Translations under genes and position numbers: made by a program | In this document: in pieces, positions 815 through 64,000 of the stretch | Position numbering within the stretch: position 1 is the first letter of the stretch | How the letters are laid out: each line of letters begins with the position of its first letter | The notes under the pieces: generated by a model | What the model was told of the DNA's origin: nothing | Databases searched by the model: none | What the model saw: the letters and a program-made list of their open reading frames with translations, nothing else | Source: Blautia coccoides | GTDB lineage: Bacteria > Bacillota > Clostridia > Lachnospirales > Lachnospiraceae | Direction: 5' to 3' | Length of the DNA stretch: 64,000 bases | Assembly (NCBI RefSeq): GCF_034355335.1 | Contig: NZ_CP136422.1 | Span: forward strand, 3,940,501 to 4,004,500

Positions 815-895
815 CACTGTCTGCAGCCCGGCTATCCCTCCCTTGGGACCCGTGGCTTTGCGTCACTGCCTTACGACAGTTTTGCCCCTTTATTT
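815..895 (-). promoter_or_regulatory. Cyclic-di-GMP-I (GEMM) riboswitch aptamer
   Basis: Read on the minus strand, the RNA shows the class I hallmarks in order. First is GGGGCAAAA. Next is a hairpin closed by a GUAA (GNRA) tetraloop (ACUGUC GUAA GGCAGU). Then comes the conserved GACGCAAAGCC, the tetraloop-receptor side. A G/C-rich second helix follows, and last is AUAGCCGGGCUGC. A terminator and then a secreted protein gene follow. The aptamer match is direct. Whether ligand turns the gene on or off cannot be read safely. Confidence 0.92.
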
Positions 896-984: not shown

Positions 985-2115
985 TTATTTCATTTTTTTG
1001 ATATTTTTACAGATAACTTCCAGGAGGCTGTCCCTGTTTTTTTCTGTAACCTCAAAAACTTTTACGTCGGGTCTCTCTGCAACGGCCTGTGTAAACGCAC
1101 CTGTATTTTTCTGCAGGACACCGATGACAAGGCTCTGGGTATCCAGGCAGGAGAACAGTGCCTCCTGGAAACCCGGGGCATCTGCCTCCGCTTTTCCCAG
1201 CTCATCTATCACAACTGTTTTTTCAGGCATGTCCTTCACCTTTTTCATCACCGCAGTGCCCAGAGTCTCAAAGGTTTCCGGTATGGATATCTTCTTTCCT
1301 CTGCCGGTCCGTATGAGGATCGGGCTGTCATTTTCAAACTCCCCCATGGGTACCAGGCTGTGCAGGTAAAATCCTTTTTGAACACCACCGATCTCATAAG
1401 GCAGGGTTTGGTAACCCACAGGCTCTGTTCCCAATTCTTCCACAATACGGTTCAAAAGTGTACTCTTGCCGATCCCCTTTTCCCCGGTCAGGAAAATATG
1501 TTTCCGCTCAGCGCCTGAGGGATGGGCCGTGAGCTTTTTCTTACCGGCCAGCTTTTTTTCTGCCTTATGACATCCACATTGACAAAAAGCCGCCGCCTTT
1601 TGGAGCATGGGACGTTTTTTCAGCGGAAATTCCGCATCCGGCAGTGATTCCAATAAATCTGCCAGCTCACAGATCTCATGCACAGAGTGATAGACCCTGA
1701 AGCCTTCCCAGGTTTTCTTTTCCCCGGCCAATCTGCCTGCTATGGCTATGGTCTCCTCTGTCAGCCGCTCCTGCACCTCTGCGTCTTTATGTGCACAGAT
1801 GATCCTGGGCACGCAGAGTTCATATTCCCCTTCCAGTATGAGAAAATCCACAGGCAGTTTTTCATAGAAATCCCCGCTCTTGTCCGCCGGAAGCAGAATG
1901 TCTGTCTCCTTTTTTCCCTTTATGCAGACAAGATCAGCACCGGCCTCCCTGTGTCTCCATGTATTGCTGTCAGAAGTGTCCAGGGAAAATTCTGGACAGA
2001 ACACACTTTTTACTGTTCCTGTCCGGTATCCCCGTTTTTTTAATTCTTTAATAAGTCCGGTGACCGTTGTAGTCTTGCCGGATTTTCTCACACCTACGAT
2101 CGTACAGATTTTCAA
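985..2115 (-). CDS. mobB: MobB-like GTPase fused to a THEP1-type NTPase
   Basis: The N-terminal ~165 residues match MobB, the GTP-binding partner in molybdopterin-guanine-dinucleotide synthesis. The P-loop is VGVRKSGKTT at residues 8-17, followed by a TGTVK segment. A Cys-rich linker (CQCGCHK, ~178-184) leads to a second P-loop, GEKGIGKST (~211-219). The Walker B-like stretch VVIDELGK and a C-terminal ~170-residue domain are typical of the nucleoside-triphosphatase THEP1 family. At 376 aa the protein is about twice the length of MobB alone. It is the last gene of the minus-strand Mo-cofactor/formate dehydrogenase run and lies 3 bp after its upstream neighbour. The role of the second NTPase is unknown; delivery or maturation of the cofactor is inference. 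Confidence 0.85.
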   Translation of the reverse strand: MKICTIVGVRKSGKTTTVTGLIKELKKRGYRTGTVKSVFCPEFSLDTSDSNTWRHREAGADLVCIKGKKETDILLPADKSGDFYEKLPVDFLILEGEYELCVPRIICAHKDAEVQERLTEETIAIAGRLAGEKKTWEGFRVYHSVHEICELADLLESLPDAEFPLKKRPMLQKAAAFCQCGCHKAEKKLAGKKKLTAHPSGAERKHIFLTGEKGIGKSTLLNRIVEELGTEPVGYQTLPYEIGGVQKGFYLHSLVPMGEFENDSPILIRTGRGKKISIPETFETLGTAVMKKVKDMPEKTVVIDELGKAEADAPGFQEALFSCLDTQSLVIGVLQKNTGAFTQAVAERPDVKVFEVTEKNRDSLLEVICKNIKKMK

Positions 2116-2118
2116 CTG

Positions 2119-2430
2119 TCACCCTCCTTGATCACTCTGTATTTCTGTTATATATTTACACCAGCGCCTTCGGTGTGTATCCTTTGGAATGACAAGGCGG
2201 TATGCTCCCCCGTCCAGCACCAGATATACATCCCCTGCAAGGATCTCCTCGCCGGACACGGCCACATCCCTGCCATCCCCGCTTATAAATTCCACAAGGC
2301 TGTCCGCAGACACGCTGCCCAGCACCTCACTCACCGAAAAGGCCTGATAGGAATATTCTGCTCCATCTGCATGCTTCCCTTCCAGTTTCACAGGGATCAT
2401 GCCTTCAAACAAACCTTCTTCTACCTTCAT
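2119..2430 (-). CDS. Small protein resembling part of the oxidoreductase molybdopterin-binding domain
   Basis: This 103-residue protein starts 4 bp inside the end of the mobA-like gene (ATG overlaps the stop) and ends just before mobB, so it is translationally coupled in a Mo-cofactor operon. Its second half has the order VAVSGEEILAGDVYLVL, then YRLVIP, then RWCKYITEI. This recalls the end of sulfite-oxidase-type Mo-pterin domains (..LRLVVPG..W.KWLTEIE..). The large N-terminal part of that domain, including the Mo-ligand cysteine, is absent. It could bind or chaperone the cofactor, or be a specificity adaptor. Function is inferred from context only. Confidence 0.6.
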   Translation of the reverse strand: MKVEEGLFEGMIPVKLEGKHADGAEYSYQAFSVSEVLGSVSADSLVEFISGDGRDVAVSGEEILAGDVYLVLDGGAYRLVIPKDTHRRRWCKYITEIQSDQGG

Positions 2431-3749
2431 ATATGCTCCCCCCAGACTGCCAGCATATCCTCCATATCATAAGGATTTGCGGCATCGCAACACGGATTCT
2501 CCCCATGATCACCGCCGTCCTCTGTCTCATGTATTCCATGATCACTGATCAGCAGGATCTCTCCTGAAAAAATCCCGGAAAGCTCTTCTATATATGCATC
2601 TGTCTCTCTTAATTTTTCCATACATGCCAGGCCTACCGGTCCCTCTGCATGAGCCGCATCGTCAATCTCATGAAAATGCGCAAAAATAAATTCTTTTCCC
2701 TCCAAAACCGCTCTGCATGCATCCCGGCAGATCCAATGATCGCAGCCTTTTCCCTTTGCCGCAGCATGAAGCCTGGGCGAAAGTTCCGTCTTTAAAATCC
2801 TGGTATCGCCCTCCAAAAAAGCAGTGTTTTCCGCGCTCCTGCCGGCAAACAGAGTGGGGACCAGCACTTCCCTGTCTTTTCTGGAATATACACCGTGTAC
2901 ACCGGGCAGTTCCCCTGTTATCATGGTAGCCATAGCCGGATTTGTCACTGGAGGCTCCACTGTTCTCACAGGGATCACAGAAAAATTCCGGCTTATAAAG
3001 GGTATGAAACCATTGTCCGCGGCATTTTTATACATGCGGTATCCCAGCCCGTCCAGATAACAGACAAGTACCCTTCCATGCCTTAACTTCTCCCTGACAC
3101 AGGGGGCAAATTCCTGGAGCTTTCTGCCGTATTGAAAACAGAGCTGTTCATATTCTTCGGGTGTGTTCACATTTGCGATAACTGCCTCTCCAAATCCCAA
3201 CTCTTCAATATCCAGATATCGCGTATTCGCCCGCTGAAACAGAAGTCTGGGTCTGTGCTCCTTATTTCTGCGCATCTTATCCACAATGGGAAGCACTTTT
3301 TTTCCGTACACACTGCACAGAGGCTGAGGCCTCCCCTCTTTTCTGAGAACCAGACAGTCTTCCTCGCCGGTAACATGGGACACCAGTTCCTTCAGGAATT
3401 CTCGGCTTATCATAGGCATGTCAGTGGCAAGCATCACGGCGTACTGCGCATCCATCTGTTTTAATATCTGATAGATACCTTCCAGCGGTCCGTATCCCTT
3501 TTCCTCATCCTCCACAAATGTACAATGCAGATCCCGGTATTCTTTCCTGTCGTTCTCTGAGACATAAATTTCAATAAAATCCCGGTACTTTTCCCTGTCA
3601 TCCACTGAGACATAAATTTCAGGGAAATCCCGGCAGACATCCAAAAGCGTGTGCAGAAATGTATTTCCGTTCCATGTCAGGGAGGCTTTATCGCTCCCCA
3701 TTCTGCTGCTCTTTCCTCCCGCCAGGATTCCTGCTGCTATTTTTGTCAT
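2427..3749 (-). CDS. MobA-like nucleotidyltransferase fused to an alkaline-phosphatase-superfamily phosphodiesterase domain
   Basis: Residues 1-~205 are a MobA/NTP_transf_3 domain. It has the signature AGILAGGKSSRMGSDK at the N-terminus, GPLEGIYQIL, and ATDMPMIS for the metal-binding Asp. MobA attaches GMP to molybdopterin. Residues ~226-440 look like a type I phosphodiesterase/nucleotide pyrophosphatase. They contain LDGLG (metal Asp), PPVTNPAMATM with a candidate nucleophile Thr near 269, HEIDDAAHAEG, ISDHG and DHGENP. A 48-bp tandem duplication gives two copies of EIYVS..DR..YRD at residues 44-58 and 60-74. The pairing of a transferase that makes a pyrophosphate with a hydrolase that could cleave one is unusual. 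Substrate is not known. Confidence 0.8.
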   Translation of the reverse strand: MTKIAAGILAGGKSSRMGSDKASLTWNGNTFLHTLLDVCRDFPEIYVSVDDREKYRDFIEIYVSENDRKEYRDLHCTFVEDEEKGYGPLEGIYQILKQMDAQYAVMLATDMPMISREFLKELVSHVTGEEDCLVLRKEGRPQPLCSVYGKKVLPIVDKMRRNKEHRPRLLFQRANTRYLDIEELGFGEAVIANVNTPEEYEQLCFQYGRKLQEFAPCVREKLRHGRVLVCYLDGLGYRMYKNAADNGFIPFISRNFSVIPVRTVEPPVTNPAMATMITGELPGVHGVYSRKDREVLVPTLFAGRSAENTAFLEGDTRILKTELSPRLHAAAKGKGCDHWICRDACRAVLEGKEFIFAHFHEIDDAAHAEGPVGLACMEKLRETDAYIEELSGIFSGEILLISDHGIHETEDGGDHGENPCCDAANPYDMEDMLAVWGEHI

Positions 3750-3784: not shown

Positions 3785-5020
3785 TTAATTCTCACCCAGA
3801 TACAAAGCTTCGATGATACTTCCGGGCAAAAGTGCACCGGAACCTTTTGGGATCATTCCGATCAGATTACAGCCGCCCCATGGGCTGACCATGCCGTTCG
3901 CCTGATTCTTCCTGGTATTTAAGCAGACTCTGCCCTGGTCGAATTCCAGAATTCCGGGAACGATCCTTCCTCCCGGGCTTTTCTTTGGAAACCCATCCGG
4001 CAGACACACGGGTATGCAGGGCACTTTGTATTCCCTTTTGCCGCACATCTTGCGGAATGCAGGAAGCCCAAGCAAAAACAAAGCCGCTGCCGCCGCGCTG
4101 GGATTGCCGGAAAGTCCTAATAAAAGCCTGCCGTCCTTTACCGCTGCCAGAGTTGCCATTCCCGGCTTCATCCTTACCTGCCAGAACAATACCTCTGCCC
4201 CGATCCCTTCCATAGAAGAAAGCGCCAGGTCATAATCTCCCACAGATGCGCCTCCTGTGGTTATCACACAGTCAGCCTCTGCCAGACAGTCCTTCAGCGC
4301 CTCTTTGATGGACTCTTCATCATCCTTTACAATTCCGTAGATATCTGCATCTACACCCCACTGCCGCAGAAAACCCTGCAGCATGTAAGCACTACTGTTC
4401 CTTATTTTTCCCGGTTTCAGCTCCTCAGATACCTGCAGAAGCTCGTCCCCTGTACTGATGATCCTGACTCTGGGTTTTTTGAAGACTTCCACCTCTCCAT
4501 ACCCAAGGCCCGCAAGAAGTCCCACGGATGCCGGGCTTAAATATTCGCCTTCTTCCATGACGATCTCGCCTTTTTTTACATCTTCTCCTGCTTTTACGAT
4601 GTTGCTCCCCGAAGCAATGGGAGAAAAGAAACACACTTCCTTTTCAGTAAAGGAAGTGTCTTCATATTTTTCCACAGCATCGGCTCCCTGAGGGATAGGC
4701 GCTCCGGTCAGTATTTTTACCGCCTCCATAGGCCCTATCACTTTTTCGGGGGCATGCCCCGCCGGTACCTCTTCGATTATTCTCAGAGTCACCGGCGAAT
4801 CATGTCCTGCACCTGCAACATCCGCAGAGCGGATGGCATAGCCGTCATAGGGTGAGCGGTCAAAGGGCGGAATGTTCTCTTTCGCCCGTACCCGGCAGGC
4901 TAAAATCCTGCCGTAAGCCTCATTGATCTCCACCTTTTCCGTCCCCATCCTCTCTGCGTGAGAGAGAAGCAGGTCTATGCCTTCCTTCATTTCAATTCTC
5001 TTTGGATAGTTCTGTGCCAT
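3785..5020 (-). CDS. moeA: Molybdopterin molybdenumtransferase MoeA
   Basis: This 411-aa protein has the normal MoeA length and order. The N-terminal domain contains PPFDRSPYDGYAIR, followed by the VPAG and ILTGAPIPQGADAV region. The MoCF-fold domain has ISTGDEL and TTGGASVGDYD, and the C-terminal barrel domain has LSGNPSAAA. MoeA inserts molybdate (or tungstate) into adenylylated molybdopterin. It follows fdhF by 36 bp on the same strand, which ties cofactor completion to the formate dehydrogenase just upstream. Confidence 0.95.
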   Translation of the reverse strand: MAQNYPKRIEMKEGIDLLLSHAERMGTEKVEINEAYGRILACRVRAKENIPPFDRSPYDGYAIRSADVAGAGHDSPVTLRIIEEVPAGHAPEKVIGPMEAVKILTGAPIPQGADAVEKYEDTSFTEKEVCFFSPIASGSNIVKAGEDVKKGEIVMEEGEYLSPASVGLLAGLGYGEVEVFKKPRVRIISTGDELLQVSEELKPGKIRNSSAYMLQGFLRQWGVDADIYGIVKDDEESIKEALKDCLAEADCVITTGGASVGDYDLALSSMEGIGAEVLFWQVRMKPGMATLAAVKDGRLLLGLSGNPSAAAAALFLLGLPAFRKMCGKREYKVPCIPVCLPDGFPKKSPGGRIVPGILEFDQGRVCLNTRKNQANGMVSPWGGCNLIGMIPKGSGALLPGSIIEALYLGEN

Positions 5021-10234: not shown

Positions 10235-11407
10235 CTACCATATTTTCATCTTCACTTTTTTCCCCGCCTTCTCCAGACAATCCTTTAAATGGTAGGTCAG
10301 ACGCAGTTTTTCCCCTGCGTCTATGTGAAGTTCTGTGTTTGCCGGGTTCCTGGCGTTCCCGAAAAAAATGCGGATGTCTGTGGAATTTTCAAAAAGCTCC
10401 ACCAGAAGCCTTGCGGCCGCATCCTTTTTCCGGCCGAAACCGAGCACTGCCAGCCCGTCTTTTAAATAACGGTTGGCATATATATTCAAACGCCGGATGG
10501 TCAGAAGTCCCTCTGTGACCAGATCCACGCCTTTTAAGGCGGACATGGCCGGAACATCATCACATCTGGTGTCTTCAAGCGAAACTAGATTTTCCCCCAG
10601 ATGATCCGCCACAAATCCTGCTGTGGTCCCTCCGCACACAATGTGCTTTCCGGGTGACTCAAAAAACAGTCTTAAAAACGCCTCATCTTTTTCCATTTGA
10701 CTGGGCGGCCCTATCATCAGATTCGTAACTGCCCTCTCACATAATTTAATCACCAGAACCGTGATATCATCATCTGTCTCATCTAAATTCAGGTCTACAC
10801 AAGCACTGGCGATATGGGCTGCCAGCTCCTGAGCTGACATTTCTTTTTTATATTTTTGTTCGCAGAAACGGACTACATCCTCCCGCCCCCATCCTCCGTC
10901 TGTCGTCTTTCCCATTCCGGCATTGGTCACGCCGTCTGACATGAGGATGAGCACATCGTCTCTCTGAAGAGTAAGCTCTGCCTCCCGGATCTCTTTTTCC
11001 CCGATATAGTGTGAGGTTTCCGAATATCCCACAGACTTTCCATCCCTTAAAAGAATGGCACCGGGATTGTCATACTGAGCCAGATAAGCCTGTCTGCCGC
11101 TGATCTTCAGGGCAGTAAAGGTTGAGTACGCCATGTTCCGCACATGACACACCGGAAGTGTTTTGGCAATGGCCTCCACCGCATCATCCAGCGCCAGTTT
11201 CTTTATCATCATGGTACAGAGCATTTTTGCCGTGAGTGTTGCCAGTATATTGGCCTTCACCCCGCTGCCCAGGCCGTCTGAAAGGACCAGGACCGTATCC
11301 GACCCCTTTTCTTCGGTAATGTAAAAATCTCCACAAAGGGATTCTTTCTTTTTATTCAGGCTCACATGTCCAAAATCCGCAAAAAGGTTGTCAAAATGTA
11401 TCTTCAT
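10235..11407 (-). CDS. SpoIIE-family PP2C-type phosphatase linked to the sensory hydrogenase
   Basis: The start is taken as ATG 11407, which overlaps the stop of the hydrogenase-like sensor (ATGA) and lies 7 nt after GGAGG. The first ~220 residues carry the SpoIIE/PP2C metal-binding elements CGDFY, LSDGLGSG and MSDGVTNAG. The remaining ~170 residues do not match anything I know; they contain the hydrophobic-core stretch KHIVCGGTTAGFVADHLG. SpoIIE-type phosphatases dephosphorylate serine/threonine on anti-anti-sigma-like partners, and none is encoded nearby. The overlap with the H-cluster/PAS protein suggests the two form a signal unit responding to hydrogen or redox state (inference). Such pairs are known with group C [FeFe]-hydrogenases. 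Confidence 0.85.
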   Translation of the reverse strand: MKIHFDNLFADFGHVSLNKKKESLCGDFYITEEKGSDTVLVLSDGLGSGVKANILATLTAKMLCTMMIKKLALDDAVEAIAKTLPVCHVRNMAYSTFTALKISGRQAYLAQYDNPGAILLRDGKSVGYSETSHYIGEKEIREAELTLQRDDVLILMSDGVTNAGMGKTTDGGWGREDVVRFCEQKYKKEMSAQELAAHIASACVDLNLDETDDDITVLVIKLCERAVTNLMIGPPSQMEKDEAFLRLFFESPGKHIVCGGTTAGFVADHLGENLVSLEDTRCDDVPAMSALKGVDLVTEGLLTIRRLNIYANRYLKDGLAVLGFGRKKDAAARLLVELFENSTDIRIFFGNARNPANTELHIDAGEKLRLTYHLKDCLEKAGKKVKMKIW

Positions 11408-13131
11408 AACCATTCCTCCGGATGATCAGTCCCGGACTTTTCCTGTTCTGTGAGGATCGTCTCCTTTAGCTTCTCCACAGCCACCTTGGTGTCGGCTGCT
11501 GTCTCCCCTAAAAGCTCCGCGATCTGATGGACAATGCGGAGCTGTTCATCCGCCAGCTTATCCGCCATCTGGGCCGCCATGATCCTGGTGCGGTGCACCT
11601 CCTGCTGCTGTGCCACCTCTTTTGTGACATTTTTCATGATGCAGATGATCAGCCCGTTACTCCTATCATACGTAAGGACCCGTTCCAGATAGACCTTGTA
11701 TTCCTCCACAAAAATCTTATCCTGGGTAAATCCTTTTCCGAATGCCAGCATATTCACAAAGGCGTAATCATCCATAAGCTTTGACACCGGCTGCCCTATA
11801 ATAGCCTTTTTCCTTCGGATATCGAATAAATCCATGGCCGCTTTGTTAAGCTGCACCACTTCCAGATCTGTATTGACCGTCACCAGCATTCCCGGCATGG
11901 AATTGATGATCTTGTTGGCATAACTGGCCTCACGCTCCCTCATATAGGGAATGCACATGGAGATTTCTGCCTTGTTTTGAAAAATAGCTACGGCCTTCTC
12001 CCTGCAGGTGTTGTATCCGCAGGCACCGCAGTTTAATTCCTTTTGGTGGGTAGCCTTTCCCATCTTTTTTAAGATCACCTGAAGTTCTTCCTCTGTGGGA
12101 TTGGGATGGATGACTTCTTTTTCAATAAACTCCCGCTCCAGGTTCATACCCACGGGCAGATTAAAATCGGCTTCATCGTCCGGACGAAACGGGTCTTTCA
12201 TGGAAGCTTTCATCACATCCATGGAAGCTTTCATTCTGCGGCTCTTGTCTTTCTGGAAGGATGGGCCTCCGATACAGCCTCCTTCACAGATATTAAGCTC
12301 CAGGAAACACTTATGTATCTTCCCCTCCCGCAGTTCCTCCAGGACCTGCATACAGTTTTCCACACCATCTATGCTAAGATAGGTATAATCTTCATTTTTT
12401 CTGATAATTCTTGTAATGCCGCCGCTCATGGCGCGCATCCTGGAAAGCCTTGGATCTGATACCTCCTGCTTTGGTTCTACCTGGATTTTGTTTTCCTCCA
12501 GCCAGGCGTCCAGCTCTTCAAAGGATATGACATAGGCAGAATAATTGTTTTTCTCAGAAATCTCCGCAACCGGAGATATACACGGGCTTATGTATACGGG
12601 AATGCAGTCTCTGTTCTTCTCTTTCAGATACTTTGCGTGTGTCTGCATGGGTGATAATACCGGAAGTAAATATTTGGCAAGCTCCGGATATTTGCTCCGC
12701 ACAAGACGCACAACCGCGGGACATACGGAAGTGATCATCACATCCATCTGCCCTTCCCCAAGTATCCGCTCATATTCCCTTCTCACCAGATAAGTGCCCT
12801 CCGCCGCTTCTCTGGCATCTGTAAATCCCAATTTCAGAAATGCTTCGTGAAGTGCCGGAAAACTGCCTGGTCCGTATTTTGCCGCATAGGTGGGATTTAC
12901 ACTTGCCACAAGCTGACATCCCTCGGCGATCATCCTTTTCAGGCTGGGCACATCATTCTTCTCTGCCTTTGCATGCTGGGGACAAATGATCGTACACTTC
13001 TCACACAGAATGCAGTCATCCTGCATGATCTGCGCCTGATGGTCCTTGATCCGGATCGCCTTCACAGGACAATGGCGGACACATTTATAACAATTTTTAC
13101 AGTCTACCGGTTTAAATTTGAGAATCCACAT
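11404..13131 (-). CDS. Sensory-type (group C) [FeFe]-hydrogenase with PAS domain
   Basis: The start at 13131 (MWILKF) has AAAAGGAAA 4-5 nt upstream. The 575 residues hold a two-[4Fe-4S] ferredoxin domain (~8-52) and an H-cluster domain (~60-300). The H-cluster motifs are TSVCP (C137), SPC (C184) and ICEGGC (C282, C286). A further four-Cys iron-sulfur segment (CGACGYNTC...C, ~368-392), a PAS domain (~405-500) and a helical C-terminus complete it. All four H-cluster cysteines are kept. The proton-transfer Cys before C137 is Val, and the Lys of the PCxxK motif is Pro, so catalysis should be slow or absent. It heads the minus-strand operon behind a good promoter and probably senses H2 or redox state and signals to the adjoining phosphatase (inference). 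Confidence 0.88.
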   Translation of the reverse strand: MWILKFKPVDCKNCYKCVRHCPVKAIRIKDHQAQIMQDDCILCEKCTIICPQHAKAEKNDVPSLKRMIAEGCQLVASVNPTYAAKYGPGSFPALHEAFLKLGFTDAREAAEGTYLVRREYERILGEGQMDVMITSVCPAVVRLVRSKYPELAKYLLPVLSPMQTHAKYLKEKNRDCIPVYISPCISPVAEISEKNNYSAYVISFEELDAWLEENKIQVEPKQEVSDPRLSRMRAMSGGITRIIRKNEDYTYLSIDGVENCMQVLEELREGKIHKCFLELNICEGGCIGGPSFQKDKSRRMKASMDVMKASMKDPFRPDDEADFNLPVGMNLEREFIEKEVIHPNPTEEELQVILKKMGKATHQKELNCGACGYNTCREKAVAIFQNKAEISMCIPYMREREASYANKIINSMPGMLVTVNTDLEVVQLNKAAMDLFDIRRKKAIIGQPVSKLMDDYAFVNMLAFGKGFTQDKIFVEEYKVYLERVLTYDRSNGLIICIMKNVTKEVAQQQEVHRTRIMAAQMADKLADEQLRIVHQIAELLGETAADTKVAVEKLKETILTEQEKSGTDHPEEWL

Positions 13132-13200
13132 AGTTTCCTTTTCCGTCATTCCGCACAGCATCGTGCAGATTCGTCAATATTACTTAGAATTATCTATTTC

Positions 13201-13229
13201 ATTATACATGAATCATTGGATTTATACAA
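13201..13229 (-). promoter_or_regulatory. Promoter of the sensor-hydrogenase/formate dehydrogenase operon
   Basis: On the minus strand TTGTAT, a 17-nt spacer and a consensus TATAAT are seen about 70 nt before the sensor start codon. No clear terminator lies between genes down to 985, so one long transcript is plausible. Confidence 0.65.
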
Positions 13230-50566: not shown

Positions 50567-53500
50567 TTATTTCTTCTTTGTCGTCTTTCTCGTTGTTCTC
50601 TTACCCGGAGCTGTCCTGCCGGTTTCCGGCTTTGCATTTTCTGTCTCATCTGCTTTCGCCACCTGGTCAGCAACAGGTGTCTGCTCTGATTTTGTCTCTG
50701 ATTTTGTCTCTGTTTTCACCGTTTCCTGTTTCACTGCTAATTTTTCGGTTTCCGGCTTTGCCTCTATTTTCTCGGCTTCCGGTTTAGACGCTATTTTTTT
50801 CGCCTCCGGCTTTGCCTCTATCTTCTCAGCTTCCGGTTTGGATGCTATCTTCTTAGCTTCCGGCTTTGCCTCTATTTTCTCGGCTTCCGGTTTAGACGCT
50901 ATTTTTTTCGCCTCCGGCTTTGCCTCTATTTTCTCAGCTTCCGGTTTTGATGCTATCTTCTTAGCCTCCGGCTTTGCCTCTATTTTCTCAGCTTCCGGTT
51001 TCGCTGGTATTTTTTTCGCCTCCGGCTTTGCCTCTATTTTCTCGGCCTCCGGTTTAGACGCTATTTTTTTCGCCTCCGGCTTTGCCTCTATTTTCTCAGC
51101 TTCCGGTTTTGCTGCTATTTTTTTAGCCTCCGGTTTGGATGCTATCTTCTTAGCCTCTGGCTTTGCCTCTGTCTTCTCCGCTTCCGTTTTGGATGTTGTC
51201 TTTTTACTTTTCGCTTTGGCTACTGTCTTTTTTGCCTTTGTTCCTGCGGTTGTCTTCTCTGTTTCCGCTTTGGCTGTTTCTTTCCCGGCCTCCGCCTTGA
51301 CAGCCTCCGCCGCTGCGGATAGGTTCAGCGCCTGCCGCTCCAGTTCTTTTTTGCGCTCATCCTCGATCTTCTTTTCCAGCTCTGCCCGGACTTTTGAAAC
51401 CGCAGGGTTTGTCTTACTCTCAGCAGTGTTTCCTGTCCCGGACGCCCTGCTCTTTCCTTTTGCGGCATTCTTAACACCTGTAGTTTCCTTCACGGCCTTT
51501 TTTGTCCCTGCCTTTGCAGTTGTCTTTTTCTCCTCTTTTGTGAAAGAGAAGATCTGAACTGACAGAGGTGCCACATCAATGACTATGGAGTTCTTTCTCT
51601 CATCATGCTCTGCCCGTTTGGAGGATTTTACCCTGGCATTTCTTACACCGGTTCCGCCGAACTCTGCTGCATCACTATTGAAGATTTCTTTGTATTTGCC
51701 CGGATACGGCACTCCCATCTGATATTTTTCATATGCAAGAGGTGAGAAGTTACATACGATCACCAAAAGCTCCTCTCTCTTTTTTGTCTTCCTGATAAAC
51801 GTCAGCATGTTTTTCTCAGATTCCATGTGGTTGATCCACTCGAACCCATCCGGGTCATAATCTAGTTCAAACAATGCCGGTTGTTCTTTATAGAAATTCC
51901 AGAGAGCTTTCACATAATTTTTAAACTGCTGGTGTTCCGGCTGTTCCAGAAGCTCCCAGTCAAGGCTTCTCTCCTCAGACCACTCTCTCTCCTGGGCAAA
52001 TTCCTGTCCCATAAACAGCAGCTTCTTTCCTGGATGCACAGCCATAAACCCATATGCGGCGCGGAGGTTTGCAAATTTCTGTTCCTTATCCCCCGGCATT
52101 TTGGTGAGAAGAGAACCTTTTAAATGGACCACCTCATCGTGGGACAAGCTTAAGAGAAATTTTTCACTATATGCATATACCATGCTGAATGTCAGCTCAT
52201 CATGAGCGCCGCCTCTGAACAGCGGGTCTTTTTTCATATAGTCAATAAAGTCATTCATCCAGCCCATATTCCATTTCATGTCAAAGCCCAGGCCATCATC
52301 CTCTATACTGCCCGTGATCTTAGGCCATGCCGTAGACTCCTCCGCGATCAAAAGCGCGTCGGGATGCCTTTTCTTAAAGATGGAATTCAGGTGTTTCAGA
52401 AATTCGATCGCTTCCAGGTTCTCATTGGAACCATAGATATTTGGAACCCACTCCCTGTCATTCTTTCCGTAGTCCAGATACAGCATGGACGCCACCGCAT
52501 CCATACGGATACCGTCTGCATGGAACTTCTCTATCCAGAAAAGCGCGTTGGAAATAAGGAAGTTTCTCACCTGCGGCCTTCCGTAATTATAGATCAGCGT
52601 TCCCCAATGCGGATGCATCCCCTGCCTGGGGTCCAAATGCTCGTACAGACATGTGCCGTCAAAATTGGGCAGTCCCTGTGTATCTTTTGGGAAATGTGCC
52701 GGCACCCAGTCCAGGATCACGCCGATTCCCTGCTGATGCAGATAATCCATGAAATACATAAAGTCCTCACAGGTGCCATATCTGCTGGTAGGCGCATAAT
52801 ATCCGGTCACCTGATACCCCCATGAGGCATCATAAGGATGTTCCATAACCGGCATAAGCTCTACATGTGTATAACCCATATCTTTTAAATATTCTGCAAG
52901 CTTCGGGGCAATGTCACGATAATTACAGAACAGTTTTCCCTCTTCCTCCGGTTTTATCCAGGAACCCAGATGCATCTCGTAGACCAGCATAGGTTTCTTT
53001 TCATCATTGATACGCTTTCTGTCTTTCATCCACTGGTCATCCTGCCACCGGTAGTGATTCAGATCCGCCACTATAGAAGCTGTTTTCGGACGCAGCTCCA
53101 CCTGATTTCCATAAGGATCTGCTTTTAGATATACAAGAGAACCCTTTGCCTTGATCTCGTATTTATACAGAGCGCCCGGTTTGATCCCCGGTATGAATAT
53201 CTCAAAGATCCCTGATACGGCCAGACGGTTCATCTGATGAACCCTTCCATCCCAGTGGTTAAAATCACCAACCACAGAGACTCTGAGCGCATTTGGTGCC
53301 CAAACGGCAAAATATACACCGGATACACCATTGATCGTCATGGTATGGGCACCCAGTTTTTCGTAAATCTCATAGCAGATGCCTGCGCAGAACTGCTGTT
53401 CCTCGTCAAGGCTGATCTTGGGTTCAAAGGAATAAGGATCATAGAACTGCTTTTTCTTACCTTCCTCATCCTCTGTTTCCACTTTATACTTCGGAATTTT

Positions 53501-53737
53501 ATTTCCAGGTATCAAGACAGCGAAAAATCCTGCCTCATCTTCCATCACCATATCATAAGTCTGTTTTTCTTTCGTGAGCAGGATCCTTGCCTGCACAGCA
53601 CCGGGCAAAAAGCACTGGATCAAAATACCGTCCTCTGTCACACGCGGTCCCAGAATACGGCGCGGTTCGCTTTCCTCGGAATATACAATCGTCTCTATTT
53701 CCGGCCAATCCATCAATTCATATAATTTGTCAGACAT
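50567..53737 (-). CDS. glgB: 1,4-alpha-glucan branching enzyme with a ~325-residue repetitive tail
   Basis: Residues 1-~730 are a complete GlgB. The N-terminal CBM48 region contains VVGDFNHWDG. The GH13 catalytic motifs are DWVPAHFP, GIRMDAVASML, AEES and SHDEVVHLKGSL. The C-terminal beta domain ends near FSFTKEEKK. Residues ~731-1056 form a Lys/Ala/Glu/Pro-rich tail with six near-perfect 18-residue units (IEAKPEAKKIASKPEAEK type) and a basic end TTRKTTKKK. Branching enzymes are normally 620-750 residues, so the tail is exceptional and resembles histone H1-like sequences. An AAGGAGGGTG site precedes the start. No other glycogen gene is in the window. Confidence 0.95.
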   Translation of the reverse strand: MSDKLYELMDWPEIETIVYSEESEPRRILGPRVTEDGILIQCFLPGAVQARILLTKEKQTYDMVMEDEAGFFAVLIPGNKIPKYKVETEDEEGKKKQFYDPYSFEPKISLDEEQQFCAGICYEIYEKLGAHTMTINGVSGVYFAVWAPNALRVSVVGDFNHWDGRVHQMNRLAVSGIFEIFIPGIKPGALYKYEIKAKGSLVYLKADPYGNQVELRPKTASIVADLNHYRWQDDQWMKDRKRINDEKKPMLVYEMHLGSWIKPEEEGKLFCNYRDIAPKLAEYLKDMGYTHVELMPVMEHPYDASWGYQVTGYYAPTSRYGTCEDFMYFMDYLHQQGIGVILDWVPAHFPKDTQGLPNFDGTCLYEHLDPRQGMHPHWGTLIYNYGRPQVRNFLISNALFWIEKFHADGIRMDAVASMLYLDYGKNDREWVPNIYGSNENLEAIEFLKHLNSIFKKRHPDALLIAEESTAWPKITGSIEDDGLGFDMKWNMGWMNDFIDYMKKDPLFRGGAHDELTFSMVYAYSEKFLLSLSHDEVVHLKGSLLTKMPGDKEQKFANLRAAYGFMAVHPGKKLLFMGQEFAQEREWSEERSLDWELLEQPEHQQFKNYVKALWNFYKEQPALFELDYDPDGFEWINHMESEKNMLTFIRKTKKREELLVIVCNFSPLAYEKYQMGVPYPGKYKEIFNSDAAEFGGTGVRNARVKSSKRAEHDERKNSIVIDVAPLSVQIFSFTKEEKKTTAKAGTKKAVKETTGVKNAAKGKSRASGTGNTAESKTNPAVSKVRAELEKKIEDERKKELERQALNLSAAAEAVKAEAGKETAKAETEKTTAGTKAKKTVAKAKSKKTTSKTEAEKTEAKPEAKKIASKPEAKKIAAKPEAEKIEAKPEAKKIASKPEAEKIEAKPEAKKIPAKPEAEKIEAKPEAKKIASKPEAEKIEAKPEAKKIASKPEAEKIEAKPEAKKIASKPEAEKIEAKPEAKKIASKPEAEKIEAKPETEKLAVKQETVKTETKSETKSEQTPVADQVAKADETENAKPETGRTAPGKRTTRKTTKKK
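50745..51180 (-). repeat. 54-bp tandem repeat inside the glgB tail
   Basis: The unit gcctctattttctcggcttc recurs every 54 bp (at about 50759, 50813, 50867, 50921, 50975, 51029 and 51083). It encodes 18 residues with two KPEA half-units. Copies differ mainly at third positions and at the IAS/IPA/IAA step, so the array is older than a very recent expansion. Confidence 0.9.
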
Positions 53738-58013: not shown

Positions 58014-58493
58014 ATGCTTGACAAGAGCTACTACCAGAAGACGGACGAAATCATCAGCCATTACGGCCGCAGGCCAAGTGCACTGATTCCCATCATGCAG
58101 GACATTCAGGCAGAATATCGTTATCTGCCGGGCGAACTACTGACCTACGTGGCAAAAGAAATAGGGGTAAAAGAGGCCAAAGCCTACAGTGTTGCCACAT
58201 TTTATGAAAACTTTTCCTTTGAACCAAAAGGAAAGTACATTATCAAAGTCTGTGACGGAACTGCCTGCCATGTCCGCAAATCCATGCCCATTCTGGAAGC
58301 CCTTCAAAAAGAGCTGGGCCTGAGCAAGAAAAAACACACCACAGATGATATGCTTTTCACTGTGGAAACCGTTTCCTGCCTGGGTGCCTGCGGGCTGGCT
58401 CCTACACTCACCGTGAACAATGAAGTACACCCGACCATGACGCCGGAAAAAGCATTGGAATTACTCACAGAATTGAGAGGTGATAGCGTATGA
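58014..58493 (+). CDS. hydC: HydC/NuoE-like [2Fe-2S] subunit of the bifurcating hydrogenase
   Basis: The 159 residues show the NuoE fold with cluster cysteines in CDGTACHVRKS and SCLGACGLAP. It is colinear and about four-fifths identical with the formate-dehydrogenase-linked copy at 9642-10121. AAAGGAGG lies upstream. It overlaps hydB by 4 bp and relays electrons within the HydABC complex. Confidence 0.94.
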   Translation: MLDKSYYQKTDEIISHYGRRPSALIPIMQDIQAEYRYLPGELLTYVAKEIGVKEAKAYSVATFYENFSFEPKGKYIIKVCDGTACHVRKSMPILEALQKELGLSKKKHTTDDMLFTVETVSCLGACGLAPTLTVNNEVHPTMTPEKALELLTELRGDSV

Positions 58494-60364
58494 TTATCGA
58501 AAACAGAGAGTCTCTGAAAAAAGAGCAGGAGGCCGCCCGGAAACAGATTGATTCTTTTGAATGCCGTATCCTGATCTGCGCCGGAACCGGCTGTGTTGCT
58601 ACCGGCTCACAGAAAATTTACGAAAGAATGCAGGAACTCTGTAAGGACATGCCCGGTGTTTCCGTAGAATTTGAAGGCCATGTTCCTCACATCGGAGTTG
58701 TGAAGACCGGCTGCCAGGGTATCTGTGAACTTGGACCCCTGATGCGGATCGAACCCCTGCATTATCAATATGTAAAGGTACAGATGGACGACTGTGAGGA
58801 AATCTTTAAACGCACCGTCCTGAACAAAGAACCTGTGGAACGCCTGTTCTACAAAAAGGGCGAGGAATCCTTCCCCACACCGGATGATATCCCATTCATT
58901 GCCAAGCAGACCAGGATCACTTTGGAAAACTGCGGACGCTTTGACGCGGAATCTCTGGATGAATACATAGCTTCCGGCGGTTACAGCGCTCTGTCAAAGG
59001 CCCTTTTTGATATGTCTCCAAAAGACGTCATTGACGAGGTAGACAAATCCGGTCTGCGCGGAAGAGGCGGCGGCGGATTCCCCACCGGCAAAAAATGGAA
59101 ACAGGTGGCCGCCCACACAGACGTAAAAGAACACTATGTTGTCTGTAACGGCGACGAGGGTGACCCGGGCGCATTCATGGATGGAAGCGTTATGGAAGGG
59201 GATCCCTACCGTCTCATCGAAGGAATGACCATTGCCGCCTATGCAGTCAATGCACAGGACGGTTATATTTATGTGCGTGCGGAGTATCCGCTCTCTGTGG
59301 AACGGCTCACACACGCCATAGCACAGGCCGAGGAAAAAGGCCTGCTGGGAGACAATATCCTGGGAACTGATTTCTCGTTCCATATGCATATCAACCGCGG
59401 CGCCGGAGCCTTTGTCTGCGGCGAGGGCTCTGCTCTGACTGCCTCCATTGAAGGCGACAGAGGCATGCCCCGTGTAAAACCGCCCAGAACTGTTGACCAG
59501 GGACTTTGGGCCAAACCTACGGTTCTGAACAATGTAGAAACCTTTGCCAATGTTCCCGGTATTGTCATGAAAGGCGCTGACTGGTTCCGCACCATCGGAA
59601 CAGAGGGCAGCCCCGGAACGAAGACCTTCTCCATCACCGGTTCTATTGAGAACACCGGTCTGATCGAAGTTCCCATGGGAACCTCACTGCGTGAGATGAT
59701 CTATGATATCGGCGGCGGCATCAAAGGCGGCGGAGAATTCAAAGCCGTACAGATCGGCGGTCCTTCCGGCGGATGTCTCACGGCTGAACACCTGGATGTA
59801 GGCCTGGATTTTGACAGTGTTAAAAAATACGATGCCATCATGGGTTCCGGCGGACTGGTTGTCATGGACGAGAATACCTGTATGGTGGAGGTTGCCCGTT
59901 TCTTCATGAGCTTTACCCAGAGGGAATCCTGCGGAAAATGTGTTCCCTGCCGTGAGGGAACCAAACGTATGCTGGAGATCCTGGAACGCATCGTAGACGA
60001 TAAAGGAAAGATCGAGGATCTTGACACCCTGGAAGAGCTGGCTGCCATGGTTAAGAATATGGCTCTGTGCGGTCTGGGCAAGAGCGCCCCCCTTCCTGTT
60101 ATCAGCACTTTAAAAACCTTCCGCAATGAGTACGAGGAGCACATTCTAGAACACAAGTGTGCCGCCAAATGCTGTACTGCTATGCGCCGTTTCCTTATTA
60201 ATCCTGAGTTCTGCAAAGGCTGCGGCAAATGTGCAAAGAACTGTCCAGTTGGAGCGATCACCGGCGTGCGCAAGCAAGCTTATCATATTGACAACGAACT
60301 GTGTATCAAGTGCGGTGCCTGCAAAGACAACTGCGCCTTTGATGCCATTTACGTGGAAGCATAG
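58490..60364 (+). CDS. hydB: HydB/NuoF-like NAD(H)-binding flavoprotein subunit of the bifurcating hydrogenase
   Basis: The 624 residues contain a [2Fe-2S] thioredoxin domain, the FMN/NADH domain (GRGGGGFPTGKKWK, GAGAFVCGEGSAL), the ESCGKCVPCREGT [4Fe-4S] motif and a C-terminal two-[4Fe-4S] domain (CKGCGKCAKNC, CIKCGACKDNC). HydB is the flavin-bearing subunit where NADH and ferredoxin electrons meet in HydABC. It has the same CGEGSAL variant as the paralogue at 7765-9645. The gap to hydA is 12 bp. Confidence 0.95.
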   Translation: MIIENRESLKKEQEAARKQIDSFECRILICAGTGCVATGSQKIYERMQELCKDMPGVSVEFEGHVPHIGVVKTGCQGICELGPLMRIEPLHYQYVKVQMDDCEEIFKRTVLNKEPVERLFYKKGEESFPTPDDIPFIAKQTRITLENCGRFDAESLDEYIASGGYSALSKALFDMSPKDVIDEVDKSGLRGRGGGGFPTGKKWKQVAAHTDVKEHYVVCNGDEGDPGAFMDGSVMEGDPYRLIEGMTIAAYAVNAQDGYIYVRAEYPLSVERLTHAIAQAEEKGLLGDNILGTDFSFHMHINRGAGAFVCGEGSALTASIEGDRGMPRVKPPRTVDQGLWAKPTVLNNVETFANVPGIVMKGADWFRTIGTEGSPGTKTFSITGSIENTGLIEVPMGTSLREMIYDIGGGIKGGGEFKAVQIGGPSGGCLTAEHLDVGLDFDSVKKYDAIMGSGGLVVMDENTCMVEVARFFMSFTQRESCGKCVPCREGTKRMLEILERIVDDKGKIEDLDTLEELAAMVKNMALCGLGKSAPLPVISTLKTFRNEYEEHILEHKCAAKCCTAMRRFLINPEFCKGCGKCAKNCPVGAITGVRKQAYHIDNELCIKCGACKDNCAFDAIYVEA

Positions 60365-60376
60365 GAGGGTTTTAAT

Positions 60377-62065
60377 ATGGGATTTATGACGATTGACGGT
60401 AGAAAAGTTGAATTTACCGATGAAAAGAATGTGCTTTCCGTCATCCGGAAAGCCGGAATCAATCTTCCGACACTCTGCTATCACTCTGAGGTTTCCACCT
60501 TCGGCGCCTGCCGGCTCTGTACTGTGGAGGATGACAGGGGACGTACTTTTGCCTCCTGCTCAGAGGTTCCCAGAGATGGAATGGTCATCTATACCAATTC
60601 CGGAAGAATTAAAAAATACAGAAAACTGATCGTGGAGCTTCTTCTCTCCGCCCACTGCCGTGACTGTACCACCTGTGTAAAGAGCGGCGAATGTGTACTG
60701 CAGGACTTAGCCCACAGAATGAATATCACGGATGTGCGTTTCCAGAATACAAGGGAAATCCGTCCCTTAGATACCAGCTCTCCCTCTATTGTCAGGGACC
60801 CTAACAAATGTATTCTCTGCGGCGACTGTGTACGTGCCTGTTCAGAGATCCAAGGGCTGGGCGTACTGGGCTTCGCCTTCCGCGGAACAGATGCCATGGC
60901 TATGCCTGCCTTCAATAAAACTTTGGCCGAGACAGACTGCGTAAGCTGCGGCCAGTGCCGTATCTACTGTCCCACAGGTGCCATCAGCATCAAGACTCAT
61001 ATGGATGAAGTATGGGATGCCATTGCCGACCCGGGTACCAGAGTCGTGGCCCAGGTAGCGCCGGCTGTACGTGTGGCAGTTGGGGATGCCTTTGGCCTGG
61101 ACAAAGGAAACAGTGTCATGGGCAAACTGGTGGCTGTTCTGCACCGCATGGGATTTGATGAGGTTTACGATACAGCGTTCAGCGCTGACTTGACGATCAT
61201 GGAGGAATCCAAGGAATTTCTGGAGCGCCTGGGTGACAGTTCAAAACTGCCCCTGTTCACCTCCTGCTGCCCTGCATGGGTAAAATTCCTCTGTGACCAG
61301 TATCCGGAATATAAGGATAATCTCTCCACCTGCCGTTCACCTCAGGAAATGTTCTCTGCAGTCATCAAAGAATACTACAGAGGATATGAGAAAAACCAGG
61401 GCAAAAAGACGGTTGTTGTGTCCATCATGCCGTGTACAGCAAAGAAGATGGAGGCCATCCGTCCCAACAGCTTTACCCATGGAGAGCAGAACACGGATAT
61501 TGTCATCACGACTACAGAATTGATCCGTATGATCAAGAACTCCGGTATTGAATTCCCGACTCTGATCCCGGAAGCCTGTGATATGCCTTTCGGTTTCGGA
61601 TCCGGCGCCGGCGTTATCTTCGGCGTAACCGGTGGTGTGACAGAAGCTATGCTCCGCCGTTTTGCGGACAAACACGACAAAGCAACTATGGATACCGTAG
61701 CCGAGACAGGTGCCCGCGGTGAGGAGGGAATCAAGGAATTCTCCGTCACCTACAAAGGCATCCCGCTGAATGTCTGTGTAGCCAGCGGACTGGCAAATGC
61801 CCAGACTGTCATGGAGAGGATCAAGAGCGGCGAAGCTCACTATCACATTGTTGAGATCATGGCATGCCGCCGTGGATGTATCATGGGAGGCGGCCAGCCG
61901 CCGAGAGCCGGTGATCGCACGAAAGCCGCCAGAAAAGACGGACTCTACAAAGCAGACAATGTTACCAGTATCCGAAAGGCCGACGAGAACCCCCTTGTCA
62001 TGTCACTGTATGATACCTTATTAAAAGGAAAAGAACACGAACTTCTGCACAATGACAGCTATTAA
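60377..62065 (+). CDS. hydA: Catalytic [FeFe]-hydrogenase HydA (group A, HydABC type)
   Basis: The 562 residues have an N-terminal [2Fe-2S] domain, the His-Cys3 [4Fe-4S] segment (HCRDCTTC...C), a two-[4Fe-4S] ferredoxin domain and the complete H-cluster domain. L1 is TSCCPAW, L2 is MPCTAKKME and L3 is MACRRGCIMGGGQP. All catalytic residues that the 13131 sensor lacks are present here. Together with HydB and HydC it should couple H2 to NAD and ferredoxin by flavin-based electron bifurcation. An AGGAGGG site lies upstream. Confidence 0.96.
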   Translation: MGFMTIDGRKVEFTDEKNVLSVIRKAGINLPTLCYHSEVSTFGACRLCTVEDDRGRTFASCSEVPRDGMVIYTNSGRIKKYRKLIVELLLSAHCRDCTTCVKSGECVLQDLAHRMNITDVRFQNTREIRPLDTSSPSIVRDPNKCILCGDCVRACSEIQGLGVLGFAFRGTDAMAMPAFNKTLAETDCVSCGQCRIYCPTGAISIKTHMDEVWDAIADPGTRVVAQVAPAVRVAVGDAFGLDKGNSVMGKLVAVLHRMGFDEVYDTAFSADLTIMEESKEFLERLGDSSKLPLFTSCCPAWVKFLCDQYPEYKDNLSTCRSPQEMFSAVIKEYYRGYEKNQGKKTVVVSIMPCTAKKMEAIRPNSFTHGEQNTDIVITTTELIRMIKNSGIEFPTLIPEACDMPFGFGSGAGVIFGVTGGVTEAMLRRFADKHDKATMDTVAETGARGEEGIKEFSVTYKGIPLNVCVASGLANAQTVMERIKSGEAHYHIVEIMACRRGCIMGGGQPPRAGDRTKAARKDGLYKADNVTSIRKADENPLVMSLYDTLLKGKEHELLHNDSY

Positions 62066-62858: not shown

Positions 62859-64000
62859 TCACCGGAATATTTCCAGGCTCCGCTGCAAAATACCGTTCAT
62901 ATGCGCAATAGCTATGCCGTAGTTTGTCATGGGCACTCCCTGGGAGCCGGCCTGATTTCTGCGCCACTGCATTTCACGCTCATTCAGCATGCAGCCGCCG
63001 CAGTGTATTACCAGCCGGTACGGAGTCAGATCTTCCGGAAATCCGGTTCCCGATGTAAATACATACTCCGGCTTTTTTCCCGTATGTTTTTCAATCCAGC
63101 CCGGCATCTTCACAGTGCCGATATCGTTACACTGCCGATGATGCGTACAGCCTTCACTGATCAATACTTTCTCCCCGTCCTTCAGGCTGTCAAGTGCATA
63201 AGCGCCCTCCAGCGCCCCGGACAAGATTCCCTTATACCGGGCAAAGAGAATGGAAAAAGAGGTAAGAGGTATCTCAGCCGGGACCGCTTTGTCCACCTTC
63301 CCGAACACCTGACTGTCCGTAATGACAAGCCGCGGCTTTTCCCCAAGGCGTCCAAGCACCTCCCCTACTCTGTCATCCTGTACTGCCAGGGGAACCGCCC
63401 CTGTGTCTAACAGTTCTCTGATCACCTGCTGCTGGGGCAGTATAAGCCTTCCCTTTGGAGCCGCTTTGTCAATGGGTATCACCAGGAGTACAAAGTCTCC
63501 CGGTGATACCAGATCTTTTACCAGGGGACGCTCCTGTCCTTCTTTTGCAAGGCTCCCCAGTTTCTCTTTCAGCTCAAAGATATGAATGCCTTTCCGGGCA
63601 CTTACATAGATTTCATGGTCTGTCTTTGGTTTTCTTTCCTCTGCCAGCAGATCTACTTTGTTGAAGACCACAAGATACGGCAGCTCTCTCTTTTCAAAAA
63701 GCTCTATGAGCTGCTGTTCCATAGGAACCAACTCTTTCCCTGCCTCCACAACCAGGACTGCAACATCTGTTTTGTGAAGTACCTGCTCCGCCTTTTTTAC
63801 CCGAAGCGCCCCAAGGCCTTCCTGGTCGTCATCCATCCCCGGCGTGTCAATGAGCAGAACAGGGCCTATGGGAAGAAGCTCCATAGCTTTTTGGACCGGA
63901 TCGGTAGTGGTGCCCTTCACATATGATACCACTGCCATATCTTGTCCTGTGACCGCATTTAACAGACTGGACTTTCCGGTGTTGCGGCGTCCGAAAAAGC
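62859..64000 (-). CDS. hydF: [FeFe]-hydrogenase maturation GTPase HydF, N-terminus outside window
   Basis: The frame stays open to the window end. The visible part starts in the G1 loop (FGRRNTGKSSLLN) and continues with TTTDPV (G2), DTPGMDD (G3) and VVFNKVDLL (G4). The C-terminal cluster ligands are CTHHRQCND, and HCGGC about 50 residues later. HydF is the scaffold that delivers the 2Fe subcluster to HydA. Its nearness to hydA supports a functional hydrogenase maturation system. hydE and hydG are not in the window. Confidence 0.95.
   Translation of the reverse strand, partial: FFGRRNTGKSSLLNAVTGQDMAVVSYVKGTTTDPVQKAMELLPIGPVLLIDTPGMDDDQEGLGALRVKKAEQVLHKTDVAVLVVEAGKELVPMEQQLIELFEKRELPYLVVFNKVDLLAEERKPKTDHEIYVSARKGIHIFELKEKLGSLAKEGQERPLVKDLVSPGDFVLLVIPIDKAAPKGRLILPQQQVIRELLDTGAVPLAVQDDRVGEVLGRLGEKPRLVITDSQVFGKVDKAVPAEIPLTSFSILFARYKGILSGALEGAYALDSLKDGEKVLISEGCTHHRQCNDIGTVKMPGWIEKHTGKKPEYVFTSGTGFPEDLTPYRLVIHCGGCMLNEREMQWRRNQAGSQGVPMTNYGIAIAHMNGILQRSLEIFR

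Follow-up and report, generated by a model that had tools for sequence, protein, structure and literature searches.

The Blautia coccoides DNA analysed here, a stretch of 64,000 nucleotides referred to below as the window (contig NZ_CP136422.1, positions 3,940,501 to 4,004,500), encodes an [FeFe]-hydrogenase-like sensor and a SpoIIE-type PP2C phosphatase 5′ of genes for formate dehydrogenase (FDH) and the molybdenum cofactor (Mo-cofactor). Judging from the sequences, we lean towards the reading that the pair is a module of the HfsB/HfsC kind, similar to HydDB group C3, set in an FDH operon, and that its sensor is a former H2 sensor which would now sense redox state or another ligand for the phosphatase. 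The pair itself belongs to an already known kind of module, within which the FDH-linked branch appears to be new.

Organization of the Operon

All genes of the cluster lie on the minus strand. The sensor gene (13131-11404; 575 aa), recognized from the open reading frame (ORF) listing and by profile search, is preceded by AGGAAA just 5′ of its start, the same start is used in close homologues, and an in-frame ATG at 13161 is an alternative. Its stop overlaps the start of the phosphatase gene at 11407 in the form of ATGA; counted from there, the phosphatase (10235..11407) has 390 aa with intact Asp motifs, while the ORF listing places its start at an upstream ATG, 11413. After a gap of 113 bases follow, each recognized by profile match, the genes for a NuoE-like [2Fe-2S] subunit of FDH (10121-9642), a NuoF-like NADH/FMN subunit (9645-7765) and FdhA (approximately 7753-5057, a longer ORF from 7906 also being possible; TIGR01591, 854.5 bits), which has a NuoG-like N-terminus and a Cys at the selenocysteine position. 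Next are MoeA (3785..5020), MobA fused to a type I phosphodiesterase-like domain (2427..3749), a listed 103-aa ORF (2119-2430) for which no match was found in Pfam or NCBIfam, and MobB fused to an NTPase_1 domain (985..2115). Thus, the arrangement given in the preliminary description, sensor and phosphatase overlapping by ATGA and lying 5′ of the FDH and Mo-cofactor genes, is borne out by the ORFs and the domain matches.

A single promoter and transcript reaching from the sensor through the Mo-cofactor genes is plausible. A promoter-like TTGTAT-17-TATAAT, read by eye, lies upstream of the sensor (13201..13229, minus strand); it is absent from the computed promoter list, and its -35 element matches 3 of 6 bases. 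In the 113-base gap before the NuoE-like gene, a sequence scan gave no terminator-like site on the minus strand and one weak promoter-like site on that strand.

Several other features of the window were noted. A c-di-GMP-I-GGC riboswitch (818-895, minus strand; Rfam RF03167, 64.3 bits) comes after the end of mobB and precedes a 1809-aa minus-strand ORF that leaves the window (L101, 5289-10718). Genes for a HydABC-like trimeric hydrogenase are found at 58014-62065 on the plus strand; of the encoded subunits, the NuoE-like one shares 82% and the NuoF-like one 72% identity with its counterpart in the FDH operon. These genes are adjoined on the opposite strand by a HydF gene (62859-64000, minus strand) that runs off the window end. 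Furthermore, the product of the ORF at 50567-53737 (minus strand) resembles, by eye, a glycogen-branching enzyme and carries a long tail of KPEAKKI-type repeats.

Domains and Active-Site Residues of the Sensor

The sensor consists, in order, of two [4Fe-4S] ferredoxin motifs (CxxCxxCxxxC, starting at C11 and C40), an H-domain (Fe_hyd_lg_C, 140.6 bits), a four-Cys FeS motif (PF04060; Cx2Cx4Cx16C, C368-C393), a weak PAS match (21.0 bits, below the Pfam cut-off of 22.6) and a C-terminal region; PF00989 or PF13188 is present in some close homologues. Two N-terminal [4Fe-4S] motifs together with the same four-cysteine motif have been described in two subclasses, apparently M2e and M2f (PMC8163306). 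The four cysteines that hold the H-cluster (C137, C184, C282 and C286) are invariant in all of the nearest homologues listed, the 120 best among 7994 matches.

The surroundings of the [2Fe] site are different. When the PC motif is aligned to HydA1 of 8a6t and the sensors are then aligned mutually, the slot of CpI Lys358 (PCxxK motif) is occupied in the window sensor by Pro187 (codon 12571..12573, minus strand) and that of CpI Cys299 by Val136 (codon 12724..12726, minus strand), and the CpI A230 slot, at which the branch mostly has His, carries Asn. K358 of CpI holds the distal cyanide ligand of the H-cluster; a literature search covering few subscription papers returned no paper stating this role. 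For sensory types, the residues that hydrogen-bond the [2Fe] unit are described as conserved (PMC10055695); the window sensor, with Pro187, and its branch depart from this at the K358 slot.

The residues were counted in 135 non-redundant sensors, namely those of 144 related loci and the window, less 7 loci without a full sensor and with 3 near-copies (97%) merged. A sensor was called FDH/Mo-cofactor-linked when FdhA (>400 bits) or MoeA/MobA (>100 bits) occurred in the fetched stretch, some stretches being short; L018 was counted by its Mo-cofactor genes (its FdhA is cut at the edge and was found upstream in that genome) and L102 by FdhA. Of the 135 sensors, 121 have retained Lys in the K358 slot and 14 lack it. 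None of the 121 Lys-bearing sensors has FDH or Mo-cofactor genes in its fetched stretch, and all six FDH/Mo-cofactor-linked sensors lack the Lys; of the other Lys-less sensors, seven have a catalytic hydrogenase nearby and one has neither. The Lys is likewise missing from all of the best 120 of 7994 homologues.

These 120 and the six linked sensors make up 126 branch sequences; the 120 are those nearest to the window sensor and not a random sample, so that their counts speak for uniformity inside the branch, and gene context was readable for the six loci. Cys occupies the C299 slot in 110 of the 121 Lys-bearing sensors and in no branch sequence (residues in the 126: N 101, A 9, S 5, T 4, V 2, I 2, R 2, Q 1). 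Residue 44, by the second ferredoxin cluster, is Glu (CxxCExC) in 126/126 branch sequences versus Gly (CxxCGxC) in 121/121 Lys-bearing ones, and the A230 slot is His in 116/126 versus Ala in 118/121. Other [FeFe]-hydrogenases are present in all six branch genomes, so that H2 matters to these cells, and these enzymes keep the K358-slot Lys: all three in the genome of the window and 11 of 11 read from the five others.

These counts bear on the possibility that the protein carries a complete H-cluster and truly senses H2, as has been suggested for group C3, and that it makes FDH expression follow H2. The invariant H-cluster cysteines speak for it, as do accessory cluster motifs and a PAS domain that match those described for sensory types, a genome that carries HydF and HydG besides its three other [FeFe]-hydrogenases, and work on HydDB and Ruminococcus albus in which members of the family are proposed to sense H2 (PMC5037454, PMC6776011). 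The missing Lys argues against it, being absent throughout the linked sensors and the best 120 of 7994 homologues, whereas 121 other sensors and the further hydrogenases of these genomes retain it, and the C299-slot Cys has gone as well. On balance we find this explanation rather unlikely, and the case for H2 sensing by the branch weakened. The "complete H2-sensing circuit" of the preliminary description is hence unsupported, the branch lacking both the Lys and the Cys near the H-cluster, which most hydrogenase-linked sensors and the further hydrogenases read from these genomes retain.

Phylogeny and Genomic Setting of the Branch

A tree of 84 rows (all 14 Lys-less sensors, 43 of the 121 Lys-bearing ones, 23 of the 120 homologues and four outgroups; a quick method, with long branches flagged) places the FDH-linked sensors in one clade of 29 rows, the six FDH loci and 23 homologues, with an SH-aLRT of 100. 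Five Lys-less, hydrogenase-linked sensors form a separate clade (SH-aLRT 99), so that loss of the Lys occurred repeatedly. The members of this second clade, L122, L131, L135, L137 and L138, are phosphatase-linked and have Glu, Asp or Arg at the K358 slot. As eight Lys-less sensors lie outside the FDH branch, seven of these near a hydrogenase, loss of the Lys alone does not imply a duty in FDH control.

In the six branch loci, the pair is part of the FDH/Mo-cofactor cluster and shares its strand, with varying gene order, and SelA, SelB, FdhD or MoaA are among its neighbours in some relatives. The pairing of sensor and phosphatase and a tie to formate metabolism, as had been suggested for the window, are well supported: all six loci with readable context sit among FDH, Mo-cofactor or Sec genes. 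Searched with the FdhA of the window (E ≤ 1e-150), 6 of 20 genomes gave matches, which are its own and the five others of the sensor branch. No match was found in four genus mates, which gave no branch sensor at the strict cut-off, or in ten family members having the pair outside the branch (nine with the Lys, and G222 without it). Because the FdhA matches coincide with the branch genomes, this type of FDH and this type of sensor seem to travel together. Few of the sampled genomes carry the branch: matches were found in 2 of 397 genomes of the family (E ≤ 1e-200) and in 3 of 392 of the order (E ≤ 1e-185), one of the latter (G620) being Lys-bearing.

At the catalytic position where FdhA of the window has Cys, two relatives show an in-frame TGA. 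In two genomes, paired formate dehydrogenases with Cys and with in-frame TGA at this same position were seen, as neighbours in G716 (L198/L201) and on separate contigs in G136 (L196/L200).

Alternatively, the module could be a passenger that was transferred along with the FDH cassette and has its effect on genes for hydrogenase or alcohol dehydrogenase at other sites. Related loci do place the module with hydrogenases, and with AdhE and Rex (named by eye), and the HydABC-like genes are present in the same window; the six FDH-branch loci, on the other hand, retain it inside the FDH/Mo-cofactor cluster in spite of reshuffled gene order, and we regard a passenger as improbable.

Relation to Known Sensor-Phosphatase Modules

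The sensor and phosphatase genes are adjacent in 136 of the 144 related loci (a few of which are the same contig fetched twice), and this adjacency exceeds chance. The eight others comprise three at a contig edge, one piece without the phosphatase and four scored as not adjacent; among these four, the ORF start of the phosphatase overlaps the sensor in L046, L130 and L156 have a gap, and L146 has no full-length sensor ORF. In one family sample, the phosphatase was found in 64 (E ≤ 1e-40) and the sensor in 63 (E ≤ 1e-60) of 299 genomes. A catalytic hydrogenase occurs within the fetched stretch of 96 of the 135 non-redundant sensors; other frequent neighbours of the pair are a small thioredoxin-like ferredoxin, AdhE and Rex (the last two named by eye).

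Several systems described in the literature resemble this pair. HydDB group C3, a putative "phosphatase-linked" group whose role is given as undetermined and which may sense H2, combines genes for an [FeFe]-hydrogenase-like sensor and a Ser/Thr phosphatase (PMC5037454); the branch of the window differs by its link to FDH and by the absent K358-slot Lys, and its likeness to C3 is one of layout. In Thermoanaerobacterium, the PAS-containing [FeFe]-hydrogenase sensor HfsB is followed by a serine-phosphatase homologue, HfsC, and deletion of hfsB alters the fermentation products (PMC5707799, PMC11837493). Likewise, the window has an H-domain and PAS in one protein and a phosphatase encoded alongside, whereas the HfsB/HfsC operon ends in the hydrogenase HfsD and that of the window, after FDH, in Mo-cofactor genes. 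HydS of R. albus is also a PAS sensor with a Ser/Thr phosphatase, co-transcribed with metabolic genes that it possibly regulates; these are for a ferredoxin hydrogenase and an alcohol dehydrogenase, in contrast to the FDH of the window (PMC6776011). PMC5707799 reports that the partner of R. albus HydS was originally proposed to be a Ser/Thr protein kinase. The idea of an H2 sensor acting with a phosphatase has thus already been published for the family (PMC5037454, PMC6776011, PMC11837493).

Two further proteins are comparable at the active site. HydS of Thermotoga maritima (group C) shares the H-domain and PAS and has altered C299, M353 and M497 slots, and it takes up the [2Fe] unit on artificial maturation (PMC10055695). 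Eukaryotic Nar1 keeps the [4Fe-4S] site of the H-cluster, and the [2Fe]H cofactor is absent from it; it is an Fe-S assembly protein and has no phosphatase partner, and the likeness is by analogy only (PMC12621388).

The Phosphatase and Its Possible Targets

The phosphatase matches PF07228 with 76.6 bits. D29, D46, D160, D215 and D216, which we take to be metal ligands, are conserved in all 81 aligned sequences. In a fold comparison, its first 227 residues have the PPM fold, with SpoIIE and 3pu9 as the nearest solved structures. The conserved C-terminal domain (10235..10735, minus strand; about 166 aa) shares G235, P237 and TEG at 300-302 among all 81 sequences and has a mean pLDDT of 89.7 in the predicted structure; neither a Pfam match nor a secure match in a fold search was obtained for it. 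The predicted fold is weakly like a domain of a formylmethanofuran dehydrogenase subunit.

Neither a kinase nor a STAS protein nor any further candidate target of the phosphatase is annotated in the operon, and a circuit is therefore not complete there. In the own genome, there is one PF01740 STAS match, beside the strongest PF13581 match in what is by eye a SpoIIAA-SpoIIAB-SigF operon, and the PF01740 search gave no STAS protein beside the sensor-phosphatase pair; a dedicated STAS protein is thus probably not the target. An action of the phosphatase on SpoIIAA, or on the sporulation cascade in another way, which would link formate metabolism to sporulation, might be read from this lone STAS protein and from SpoIIE being among the nearest solved relatives. 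We consider it very improbable: the genome has a separate, stronger match to SpoIIE, and among the matches listed for the best 80 of 583 relatives the module also stands beside hydrogenases in many genomes, those of Treponema included. Treponema is not known to sporulate.

Two kinase-like genes were noticed. In the genome of the window, a PP2C-like phosphatase gene and, directly after it, an ORF resembling eukaryotic-type Ser/Thr kinases were seen by eye (L099/L007, C1 near 4465957), a possible source of phosphorylated targets. A 250-aa APH/RIO kinase-like protein is encoded 5′ of the pair, often after AdhE (L072, 3521-4270, and similar cases), in some of the loci that do not belong to the FDH branch, and is a candidate for the kinase opposing the phosphatase.

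A Model for the Branch

Since the side chains around the [2Fe] site are lost and the holders of the [4Fe-4S] part are kept, a sensor of redox state or of an alternative ligand is moderately favoured over an H2 sensor. In our model, the sensor-phosphatase module would have been recruited into the FDH/Mo-cofactor operon, and we infer that the branch sensor has abandoned hydrogenase chemistry. Its accessory clusters and the [4Fe-4S] part of the H-cluster are probably still bound, perhaps with another occupant in the [2Fe] cavity, and the protein would signal either the redox state of the cell (ferredoxin/NADH, or electrons delivered by FDH) or some ligand different from H2 to its PAS and C-terminal region. 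This region would pass the state on and switch the partner phosphatase, and the phosphatase may then dephosphorylate a regulator that is phosphorylated on Ser/Thr and whose gene lies outside the operon, tuning FDH or fermentation genes; this last step is the weakest.

More specifically, the branch may have given up the organometallic [2Fe] site like Nar1, with the emptied or refilled pocket reporting formate/CO2 metabolism or redox to a PP2C phosphatase that controls the NuoEF-linked FDH and its cofactor supply, a version that we put forward tentatively. Some points count against a former H2 sensor: the Lys is also lost in the eight sensors outside the branch, mostly beside hydrogenases, all six genomes have other [FeFe]-hydrogenases, the window sensor has Asn in place of the A230-slot His that is typical of the branch, and a group C enzyme with other altered pocket residues still accepts [2Fe] (PMC10055695). 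The group C [FeFe]-hydrogenases in general have been taken as H2 sensors on little direct physiological evidence (PMC8924675). With the [4Fe-4S] ligands kept, the Lys and Cys around [2Fe] dropped and a setting in FDH instead of hydrogenase operons, the branch is a clean comparison for what such sensors sense, and it offers a handle on the formate/H2 balance in these anaerobes.
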